Source: a virus. Taken from it: a stretch of DNA of 34,080 nt. The translations under genes and the position numbers were made by a program. Where the stretch lies: positions 1-34,080 of the IMG/VR virus record IMGVR_UViG_3300002225_000011. One strand, 5' to 3'. Within the stretch, counting starts at the first letter, position 1; every line of letters starts with the position of its first letter. The notes beneath the pieces are model-generated. The model searched no databases, had not been told where the DNA came from, and saw only the letters and a list, made by a program, of their open reading frames with translations. This document shows positions 6,487 through 19,916 of this stretch, in pieces.

Positions 6487-6501
6487 GTTAATGCGCTGTT
6501 A
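6487..6501 (-). repeat. Cassette-boundary element TAACAGCGCATTAAC, copy 1
   Basis: On the minus strand the element starts with the TAA stop of the 66-aa gene. With 13 following bases it matches 19015-19042 at 26 of 28 positions, up to and including the next ATG. A 15-base version also lies at 12284-12298. TAAC is the inner edge of an attC R box, so this may be the far boundary of the cassette that begins at the attC-like site 6716-6773. Confidence 0.6.
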
Positions 6502-6699
6502 GCTGTCACGCAGGTATTCGATAACTTGATTATGTTCAAGCCCATACTCAGCAGGAACTTTGCAAAACGCTTCATCGTCATACGCGATAGAGTAGCCTTT
6601 ACTTAGTCTTTCTGAGTTCTCTGCCTTCATTCCCTCAATAGCTGCGTTGGCACAAACTACTTGTGAATTTATGAATGCAATTCTCTGTTCTTTATCCAT
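6499..6699 (-). CDS. Small conserved phage/cassette protein
   Basis: This 66-aa soluble helical protein (IAFINSQVVCANAAIEGMKA, then AYDDEAFCKVPAEYG, ending VIEYLRDS) is of a type common in phage accessory regions; its function is unknown. A strong GGGAGG site precedes it. The gene lies between the attC-like site 6716-6773 and the boundary element 6487-6501, and its stop codon is inside that element. It is therefore a candidate integron-type gene cassette. Confidence 0.65.
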   Translation of the reverse strand: MDKEQRIAFINSQVVCANAAIEGMKAENSERLSKGYSIAYDDEAFCKVPAEYGLEHNQVIEYLRDS

Positions 6700-6715
6700 T
6701 ATCTTAGCCTCCCAG

Positions 6716-6773
6716 CTAACAAGTTTGTCAATCGGACTGGCAAAAGCACCAGCCGCTTACAATCGGGCGTTAG
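6716..6773 (+). repeat. attC-like integron recombination site 1
   Basis: This 58-base imperfect palindrome starts CTAAC and ends GTTAG. After an unpaired spacer (AAGT against GCCCGA) the arms pair as TTGT-AA-CGG-CTGG, with two unpaired bases on the left arm only: C6729 and A6736. These lie seven bases apart, as at the classic aadA-type attC, where the complementary G and T are read by the integron integrase. Length and geometry match short attC sites. By this asymmetry the top strand runs on +, opposite to the neighbouring genes. Confidence 0.8.
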
Positions 6774-7039
6774 TTTTCTTCTTGGCTTAACCAGTTTTGC
6801 AACTCTTCTGCGGTTGGCTGCTTCCAATTTGTTATTTGACCCGTATCAATATCTATATCCAGGATCACATAATCCCCATAATGCTCACCTGGCATAAAGC
6901 AAGGAACGTAACCATCGAAATCTTTCAGTTCAGTTCCTGTTGCTGACTCCAGAACACCAGTAAACCTATCGCACACTTTTAAATGTAATTTCAAGGTTTT
7001 AGCGTTCACCTTCACTACTTCTGTTGCGTCAATCTCCAT
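6770..7039 (-). CDS. Cassette-borne small conserved protein
   Basis: This 89-aa acidic protein contains GYVPCFMPGEHYGDYVILD and DTGQITNWKQP, a pattern shared by small proteins of phages and mobile elements with unknown function. The start at 7039 has GGAG six bases upstream; earlier in-frame codons include only TTG and an ATG inside the ribosome site. The gene is bracketed by attC-like sites at 6716-6773 and 7062-7116, and its TAA stop lies within the GTTAG box of the first. It fits a single-gene integron cassette whose gene is opposite to the apparent attC orientation. Confidence 0.7.
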   Translation of the reverse strand: MEIDATEVVKVNAKTLKLHLKVCDRFTGVLESATGTELKDFDGYVPCFMPGEHYGDYVILDIDIDTGQITNWKQPTAEELQNWLSQEEN

Positions 7040-7061
7040 TATCATCTCCAATAATTTAAAA

Positions 7062-7116
7062 CTAACAAGTCGATCAAAATCGACCTCGTACCTCGGCTAT
7101 TTACCTAAAGCGTTAG
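7062..7116 (+). repeat. attC-like integron recombination site 2
   Basis: This 55-base site has CTAAC/GTTAG outer boxes. The left arm AACAAGTCGATCAAAATC closely matches site 3 (TAACAAGTCG-x-TCAAAAT is shared). L-box pairing T(C)AAA against TAAA leaves an unpaired C as in site 1. The inner stem is weaker than in site 1: the left arm can form its own hairpin (GTCGAT/ATCGAC, 7069-7084). A further hairpin CGGACA/TGTCCG (7118-7139) follows. Called attC-like from outer boxes, homology and position. Confidence 0.6.
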
Positions 7117-7117
7117 C

Positions 7118-7139
7118 CGGACAAGTCGCAACCTGTCCG
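7118..7139. repeat. Hairpin next to attC-like site 2
   Basis: The six-base inverted repeat CGGACA/TGTCCG with a ten-base loop lies between the stop of the 64-aa gene (7148) and attC-like site 2. It has no T-run on the minus strand, so it is not a clear terminator. It may belong to the recombination site or to a decayed neighbour. Confidence 0.5.
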
Positions 7140-7147
7140 ACGTTAAG

Positions 7148-7342
7148 TTAAAACGCAGCAATTCTCTCCCCAAGTATTTCGGAGTATTGCCACATGATGT
7201 CATTCTGCACCTTCAACCTTTCTTGTTCCGCAGAGTCGATGTTTTCAAAGTTTGGGCTGTTTCCTATAAAATCACTAAGGGCCTTTGCTTTTATGTCAAG
7301 CTCGTTTTTTTCGTTTACTACGCGTTGCTGATACTGTTCCAT
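7148..7342 (-). CDS. Small conserved phage protein (crAss001_48-like)
   Basis: This 64-aa helical protein starts MEQYQQRVVNEKNELD and ends MWQYSEILGERIAAF, the pattern of a widespread small phage protein annotated as crAss001_48-related. Function unknown. The ATG at 7342 is preferred over an upstream GTG because AGAAGG lies about nine bases ahead. The gene adjoins the attC-like region, and its TAA is again followed by C. Confidence 0.65.
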   Translation of the reverse strand: MEQYQQRVVNEKNELDIKAKALSDFIGNSPNFENIDSAEQERLKVQNDIMWQYSEILGERIAAF

Positions 7343-18675: not shown

Positions 18676-18761
18676 TAACGCCCCTTAATTGGGGCTAAGT
18701 TGGTGAAGGCTTTAGTTAAGCAGCCGCGCTTTTCGCGGTCTTATTTTGAACGACTTGTTAT
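18675..18761 (-). repeat. attC-like integron recombination site 3
   Basis: This 87-base site has outer boxes ATAAC (18675-18679) and GTTAT (18757-18761). On the minus strand the arm reads TAACAAGTCGTTCAAAAT, matching site 2 at 17 of 18 bases. The L box pairs as TT(C)AA/TTAA with an unpaired C, as in site 1, on the minus-strand arm. The centre holds hairpins GCCCC/GGGGC (18680-18695) and CCGCG-CTTTT-CGCGG (18724-18738). As with sites 1-2, the top strand runs against the neighbouring genes. The inner pairing is imperfect, typical of longer attC sites. Confidence 0.65.
18724..18747 (+). terminator. Terminator-like hairpin within attC-like site 3
   Basis: A five-base-pair GC stem (CCGCG/CGCGG, loop CTTTT) is followed by TCTTATTTT. 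It could end transcription after ssb, or be the variable apical stem of the attC-like site. The stem is short, so termination would be partial. Confidence 0.4.
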
Positions 18762-18777
18762 ACGTTTTGGAGTAGAT

Positions 18778-19017
18778 ATGAAAAAAGAAGTTGGTGTAAT
18801 GGTTATGAAGGATGGGAAGGCATGGGGCATAGAATATGCAGATGGTCATTCTACTTCATACGGTTGGATTGAGCCTGAAGATGCGCCGATACACAACCCT
18901 AAGTTTTGCAAAAAAACAACTGACGTTACATCCGAAGGTAGCAATTACATAGATGAACTTAAAACAGGAGAACTTGTTATGATCCAAAGAATAACGACTG
19001 TTACTATTGCCGTATAA
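18778..19017 (+). CDS. Conserved phage/cassette protein
   Basis: This 79-aa protein (MKKEVGVMVMKDGKAWGIEY, then STSYGWIEPEDAPIHNPKFC and ELKTGELVMIQRITTVTI) is of a type common in phages and mobile elements, with no known function. The start at 18778 has TTGGAGTAGAT upstream. An upstream ATG-type extension would run through the attC-like DNA and is rejected. Its stop TAA lies in the boundary element 19015-19029, so the gene with the attC-like site forms a cassette-like unit. Confidence 0.75.
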   Translation: MKKEVGVMVMKDGKAWGIEYADGHSTSYGWIEPEDAPIHNPKFCKKTTDVTSEGSNYIDELKTGELVMIQRITTVTIAV

Positions 19018-19029
19018 CAGCGTATTAAC
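19015..19029 (+). repeat. Cassette-boundary element TAACAGCGTATTAAC, copy 2
   Basis: It starts with the TAA stop of the 79-aa gene. With the following 13 bases it matches 6501-6474 on the minus strand at 26 of 28 positions, through the next ATG. The preceding GTATAAC is the reverse complement of GTTATAC at the gene-side end of attC-like site 3, as expected of a cassette with matching ends. Confidence 0.6.
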
Positions 19030-19201: not shown

Positions 19202-19503
19202 ATCATCTTTCAGATTTGGTAATGATGATGGAGCGAGGCAAAACAAGCAACGGCAGGGCTGTCGGCCAGATCATATCTATGCGGAATGAATTAAACATTG
19301 TAAATGCTAATCACATTGATATAGCTAAAGAACTAAACGCATGCGATGGTACAAAAATAGGCAGCTCAAGCGTGCTGAAATCACTAAATCATTTGGAGTC
19401 AAGTGATCAGATACGATTCATGAAAGACGGGTTTATTATAAATCCAGAAACTATACCTGCAAAGAACAAAGAGGCAGCGCTTAAAGCATGGGCGGAAGCA
19501 TGA
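19198..19503 (+). CDS. Possible winged-helix protein
   Basis: This 101-aa protein (LVMMMERGKTSNGRAVGQII, then HIDIAKELNACDGTKIGSSS and VLKSLNHLESSDQIRFMKDG) has the helix-helix-strand order of a winged helix. SSSVLKSLNHLES would be the recognition helix. The ATG overlaps the previous TGA, and its own TGA overlaps the next ATG. Regulation of late or host genes is possible but not shown. Confidence 0.55.
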   Translation: MNHLSDLVMMMERGKTSNGRAVGQIISMRNELNIVNANHIDIAKELNACDGTKIGSSSVLKSLNHLESSDQIRFMKDGFIINPETIPAKNKEAALKAWAEA

Positions 19504-19916
19504 AAGCATTTAAAAGGATTTTAATCATTACCACCCTGGCACTGCCTCAATTCGCAATGAGCGCTGAATTAATAATTGGCGGCTGGTCGTATCACCCAAG
19601 CAAAACATGGTATGACGGGGAGAAAGATATTGAATACCTGAATGATAATAAATTAATTGCATTGGATTTGAATAACGTGGTATTGGCATCGTTCACTAAT
19701 TCATACAACAATAAAACCAAGGCAATTGGTTACAATTTTAAAATCAATAAATACTTTGGAGTTATGCCGCTATTGACCGACACATACGAAAATGAAACTC
19801 CGTTAAAGCTCGGCCCGGTTAATCTGATGGGAATGCTAACCTTTAAAGCCGGGCCGGTTGTGCTGCTTTTTGTGCCGAATGAAGTTTATACCTTGGCGTT
19901 TAGCTTTAAGATCTAA
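19500..19916 (+). CDS. Secreted protein, predicted outer-membrane beta-barrel-like
   Basis: This 138-aa protein has a signal peptide (MKAFKRILIITTLALPQFAM, ending before AELIIGGW). Short amphipathic strands follow (LIALDLNNVVLASFTNSYNN, KAIGYNFKINKYFGVMPL) and end in an aromatic LAFSFKI, suggesting a small beta-barrel. Phage proteins of this type occur near operon ends, and some may change the host surface. Superinfection exclusion is a possible role but unproven. It is last in the rightward operon, and its TAA overlaps the tail-tip gene's TAG. Confidence 0.65.
   Translation: MKAFKRILIITTLALPQFAMSAELIIGGWSYHPSKTWYDGEKDIEYLNDNKLIALDLNNVVLASFTNSYNNKTKAIGYNFKINKYFGVMPLLTDTYENETPLKLGPVNLMGMLTFKAGPVVLLFVPNEVYTLAFSFKI

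Follow-up and report, generated by a model that had tools for sequence, protein, structure and literature searches.

Three small genes of the virus contig IMGVR_UViG_3300002225_000011 are probably integron gene cassettes that the integron integrase of a bacterial host moves in trans; there are no recombination data. The window analyzed here is the whole contig, 34,080 bases in length. Integron gene cassettes are movable units by which bacteria swap genes, e.g., those for antibiotic resistance, and bacteria shuffle cassettes mainly by means of integrons. The features observed in the window are attC sites that fit a covariance model, cassettes with complementary ends, array starts that match a chromosomal attI core, the absence of a recombinase, and genes that are antiparallel to attC (Table 1). 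A broader reading is put forward with less assurance and is only somewhat favored: this is a phage-side integron, where integrase-less phages keep attI-like docks, share a pool of reversed cassettes that carry phage genes, and borrow the integrases of their hosts. A first-pass annotation of the DNA had described two tandem cassettes with genes opposite to attC in a phage without an integrase. This description is supported by the model, by the complementary ends and by an unambiguous orientation. The third site with its third cassette, the attI-like boundary and the generality of the reversed polarity go beyond it.

The window represents a virus of bacteria, which are probably marine. The minus strand carries the terminase, portal, capsid, head-tail and tape-measure genes. 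The early genes of a leftward block include MazG-, endonuclease VII-, NinG-, NinB- and exonuclease-like ones; in a rightward block the gene for a replication protein comes first, and the SSB gene is also there. Phages of Vibrio, Marinobacter and others encode similar proteins, but no close relative of the window is present in the collections searched. The closest relative as determined by terminase (record G001, 67%) has only structural genes in common with the window and is without attC sites. GC skew tracks gene direction, and effects of replication and transcription cannot be separated by it. Rfam models show no match to the window at gathering thresholds. The protein encoded at positions 19488–19916 (+), adjoining a tail fibre gene, matches a PHROG family described as PagP-like, a description that refers to lipid A acylation and resistance to antimicrobial peptides.

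A tyrosine recombinase of family PF00589 is absent from the whole window record, which bears out the view of an integrase-less phage. The window is not a complete integron in that it has attI-like sites and cassettes without an integrase. It meets the definition of a CALIN, i.e., at least two nearby attC sites and no intI: sites 1 and 2 are ~346 bp apart and there is no PF00589 match.

Table 1. Positions of the attI-like sites, cassettes, cassette genes and attC sites in the window
Feature	Positions	Strand	Description
attI-like site 1	6488..6501	+	TTAATGCGCTG|TTA, cut G6498|T6499; bounds the two-cassette array on the left
Cassette A	6499..6769	+	TTAGCTG ... CAGCTAAC + attC 1
Cassette A gene	6499..6699	-	66 aa, phage-type; the boundary TAA serves as stop codon
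attC 1	6715..6775	+ (top strand)	R'' CTAAC 6716-6720, R' GTTAG 6769-6773; R1 44.1 bits, E 2.8e-10
Cassette B	6770..7112	+	TTAGTTTT ... AAAACTAAC + attC 2
Cassette B gene	6770..7039	-	89 aa; 93 aa from TTG at 7051
attC 2	7061..7118	+ (top strand)	R' cut G7112|T7113; R1 42.2 bits, E 9.8e-10
attC 3	18706..18762	-	R1 19.7 bits, E 0.0022; R''/L side intact
Cassette C gene	18778..19017	+	79 aa; relative in one Vibrio phage
attI-like site 2	19015..19028	-	TTAATACGCTG|TTA, cut 19018|19017

attC 1 and attC 2 have the layout CTAACAAG-N4-TCAA...GCGTTAG. The CTAAC/GTTAG boxes that the first-pass annotation placed at 6716–6773 and 7062–7116 are present as described, and the two unpaired bases it pointed out, C6729 and A6736, seven bases apart, align to unpaired columns 15 and 22 of an alignment of bacterial attC sites. 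The bacterial sites come from a scan of 84,980 bacterial and archaeal genomes with a pattern common to both window sites, which retrieved arrays from Luteimonas, Stenotrophomonas, Rhodanobacter, Colwellia and others. The alignment consists of 32 scan-derived attC sequences and shows clear covariation in the L stem. The covariance model made from it (R1) finds 390 attC sites in 62 bacterial loci. Both window sites match R1 over the full length with very low E-values, and the covariance-model check proposed in the annotation is passed. The R1 match to attC 3 covers 18706–18759 (-). No R1 match to either site is found on the opposite strand with filters off and E ≤ 10, and no match is found at E ≤ 1 in 884 kb of sequence from 80 other phage loci. 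The pattern used for training was selected for its fit to both window sites, which makes the conserved boxes of R1 partly circular as evidence. The L' arm, the adjoining TTA and the length were not in the training pattern, and the empty control and attC 3 are independent of the pattern. Judged by this model, both full sites are integron attC sites; recombination of these sites by IntI is inferred. A first scan of viral contigs with an attC pattern gave mixed results near the chance rate, and a stricter pattern together with the model was then used. The pattern YGTYTAATRCGCTGTTAG has a single match in 346 genomes, which is within repetitive coding sequence and was judged to be due to chance.

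Folding of the bottom strand was expected from the annotation to yield the R/L hairpin. The computed fold of site 1 shows this hairpin, but for site 2 the structure of lowest energy differs from the canonical one. The folding energy of site 1 has a z value of -1.6, and energies computed for single sites carry little weight. The R' half of attC 3 is decayed and has GCCTT instead of GCGTT. Some of the sites may be dead, since attC 3 is decayed and attC 2 is non-canonical by energy alone. The sites are palindromic and are situated between stop and start codons in compact operons, and weak terminators are thought to lie in attC sites (PMC9892861). Hairpins that serve as transcription or translation signals (terminators, processing sites or start-codon coupling) and that converged on an attC-like shape could have these properties. 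Such convergence is very improbable, however, as a regulatory hairpin needs no exact attC boxes, no two unpaired bases, no end complementarity to a neighboring site and no attI core, and R1 has no match at E ≤ 1 in the 884 kb of other phage loci.

In an integron cassette, the bases that follow G|TT are complementary to the bases that precede AAC of its own attC. Cassette A has complementary ends of 8 bases, GTTAGCTG (6498) and CAGCTAAC (site 1), and the ends of cassette B, GTTAGTTTT (6769) and AAAACTAAC (site 2), are complementary over 9 bases. Cassette C, at 18.7–19.0 kb, displays 8 complementary bases, GTTATACG and CGTATAAC, on the other strand. For neighboring attC sites in viral contigs (61 pairs), complementarity extends over a mean of 4.3 bases vs 1.7 for shuffled pairs; the corresponding values in bacterial arrays are 5.1 and 2.7. 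The further TAAC boundary noted in the annotation is real, with the cut at G6498|T6499. The stop codons of the cassette A and B genes are both in the R-box TAA, as had also been noticed (6499–6501 and 6770–6772). A perfect short inverted repeat, CGGACA...TGTCCG, without a T run, is found directly after attC 2 at positions 7118–7141.

The protein encoded by cassette A has a weak PHROG match (phrog_14827) and relatives with 38–63% identity in four phage records. Relatives of the cassette B gene are ordinary genes in other phage loci, with no attC nearby. In three of these phage loci the SSB gene adjoins the relative; it is 11 kb away in the window. The DNA homology of cassette B to record G004 covers only positions 7039–6788. 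A pattern search of 84,980 bacterial and archaeal species revealed no relatives of the cassette B protein, none were found in plasmids, and the DNA of the array has no match in plasmids. The ordinary, attC-free setting of these relatives and the distance of 11 kb from SSB in the window are indirect support, inferred from a comparison of loci, for cassette gain or loss.

Both arrays of the window start at TTAATRCGCTG|TTA, and the bases TTTTAATTCC flank both of these attI-like sites. The motif TTAATRCGSTGTTA is present at four distinct places in 3.0 Mb of loci, where 0.09 are expected, and an array begins at each of the four; two are in the window, and the phage contigs G002 and G003 have one each. 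With no tyrosine recombinase in the window record, its attI-like sites adjoin no intI. PF00589 is also absent from G002 and G003, and overall from 15 of the 16 records. The attI of Colwellia sp. BRX10-3 is CTAATACGCTG|TTAG; it is 217 bp upstream of intI and is followed by attC sites. The phage motif is identical to the core of this attI but for one base. The spacing YTAA-N6-G|TTA is present at the start of the window arrays, and Shewanella attI has this spacing as well (PMC9892861). A weight matrix derived from six bacterial attI sites, which ranks sites among GTTA sites, gives p values of 0.002 for the second window site, 0.012 for the G002 site and a modest 0.04 for the first window site. 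The identification of the sites as docks is based mainly on the conserved motif and the match to Colwellia, because the weight-matrix match of the first site is modest.

The literature describes cassettes that have inserted at attG sites, and it is conceivable that the cassettes entered ordinary G|TT secondary sites, where the motif to the left is inherited or accidental and does not represent a dock. The two window motifs have common flanks and may be copies of each other, and the left end differs in several other phage arrays. This explanation is nevertheless doubtful. In the 3.0 Mb the 14-base motif is confined to array ends, in three contigs that are otherwise unlike one another, and, apart from one base, it is the bacterial attI core with attI spacing.

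The three window cassette genes are all antiparallel to their attC. A gene that runs with the attC top strand is the usual arrangement in bacteria, although it does not strictly define a cassette. In viral contigs 59 cassettes are reverse and 9 forward, compared with 5 reverse and 87 forward in bacterial loci (Fisher p 7e-28). Polarity was assigned by the same rules in both sets, i.e., complementary ends of at least 8 bases and a single ORF that takes up at least 60% of the cassette; the viral count omits one contig whose array is of bacterial type. When counted by contig, 31 are reverse and 7 forward in the viral set vs 2 and 28 in the bacterial set. The contig counts are safer, since cassettes within one contig are not independent. 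In 50 of the 59 reversed cassettes the stop codon is within the R box. Reversed arrays occur in varied phages, with matches to terminase, capsid, portal, baseplate and polymerase, although not every contig was examined. The reversed cassettes encode DNA methyltransferases (Dam-type, MT-A70-type and N6/N4) and many short proteins that are unknown. Orphan DNA methyltransferases are encoded by reversed phage cassettes in L040, L239, L270 and L277, and protection against host restriction is a possible role.

Forward cassettes of bacterial type do occur in some IMG/VR contigs (L290/L298, L025, L054 and L238), and those in L025 and L238 have 84% DNA identity to bacterial cassettes, as expected if they are bacterial. 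Their presence would fit a fragment of a bacterial integron wrongly assembled or binned into a viral contig. As an explanation of the arrays described here this is hardly credible: terminase, portal, capsid, tape measure and replication genes surround the arrays, the cassette genes have phage relatives (the pattern search yields none for cassette B in 84,980 bacterial and archaeal species), and the polarity is unlike that of bacterial integrons.

A sign of movement is seen in G003 (L317 13353 and 14292), where one stretch of 265 bp, with no mismatch, follows two different attC sites. The identity begins at the G|TT cut, and one copy stops at the contig end. A duplication, variation within the population or a fork in the assembly could each account for this repeat; the G003 array has no match to known phages. 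For the window, no empty site and no cassette gain or loss in a close relative was found in the collections searched. The neighboring MazG-like protein is without relatives in viral contigs, so that no empty site was obtained by way of it. The lack of a relative with a different cassette set is also what would be seen if the cassettes had been acquired once by way of an integron and are now fixed and inactive, with the attC sites as fossils. The R' box lost from attC 3 and the absence of a stable canonical hairpin in attC 2 by energy are consistent with such a history. It is thought unlikely, however, as attC 1 and attC 2 retain every conserved box and complementary ends, recombination in E. 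coli has been shown for attC sites of other phages (PMC9892861), and G003 has a junction precisely at a cassette boundary.

According to the proposed mechanism of movement by a host enzyme, the integron integrase of the bacterial host would act in trans on phage DNA; the host and its integrase are unidentified. The folded attC bottom strands would recombine with the attI-like sites of the phage, and by this means phages could exchange short early genes. IntI recombines only the folded attC bottom strand (PMC11023631), and for this reason the orientation of a cassette at attI is fixed. A dock that opposes the phage operon would accept any cassette but express only reversed ones, and bacterial sense cassettes would be silent there. 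The antiparallel cassette genes are inferred to result from this, i.e., from a dock that points against the operon and allows only reversed cassettes to be expressed. Expression restricted in this way would select a phage-specific pool. Selection on polarity is thus an inference, as are the use of a host enzyme, present activity and the role of the attI-like sites as IntI targets. Chromosomal arrays hold the attC bottom strand on the template of the leading strand, and excision in Vibrio cholerae increases when the array is inverted (PMC11023631). Provided that phage genes are oriented along the replication fork, reversal would put the bottom strand on the lagging-strand template, the arrangement with the higher excision.

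CALINs are known in both virulent and temperate phages (Qi et al. 2023, Front Microbiol 14:1091391, PMC9892861). They are similar to the window arrays in having attC sites around small phage genes without an integron integrase, but neither an attI-like dock in integrase-less phages nor reversed polarity was described. Prophage-borne integrons, such as those of Vibrio anguillarum phages and Shewanella prophage M16-3, also place integron parts on a phage genome; they differ in carrying intI and host-type arrays captured from the host (PMC9892861). Chromosomal integrons of Colwellia and other Alteromonadales share the attC design and the attI core (C/T)TAATRCGCTG|TTA (L333). In bacterial integrons, however, intI adjoins attI and the genes are parallel to attC in 87 of 92 oriented cassettes. 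Insertions at attG sites likewise put cassettes at G|TT without an integron platform, whereas the target in the window has a conserved attI-like core. The Colwellia sp. BRX10-3 integron (L333 1266, -) is a candidate for the host lineage or the source of the enzyme.

The literature searched, which leaves out most subscription papers and preprints, has no report of an attI-like dock without intI in phages or of the opposite polarity of phage cassettes. Relative to this literature, both the attI-like dock and the pool of reversed cassettes appear to be new. If the proposal is true, phages exploit a host enzyme to shuffle their own early genes, the methyltransferase cassettes are possible counters to restriction, and polarity separates the phage cassette pool from the bacterial one. 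A gene antiparallel to attC, together with an attI core without intI, provides a search signature for such arrays. It also becomes directly testable whether transcription or the replication strand determines the polarity.

In published assays, five of six phage attC sites tested, including attC of H101 (PH101), recombine with attI1 by means of IntI1 (PMC9892861). The structure in PH101, a phage of Pseudoalteromonas, is typical according to the same paper, yet by R1 the annotated cassette genes are on the strand opposite to attC, i.e., antiparallel. The H101 array is at L327 25920–27987, which corresponds to KR534323 positions 75920–77987.
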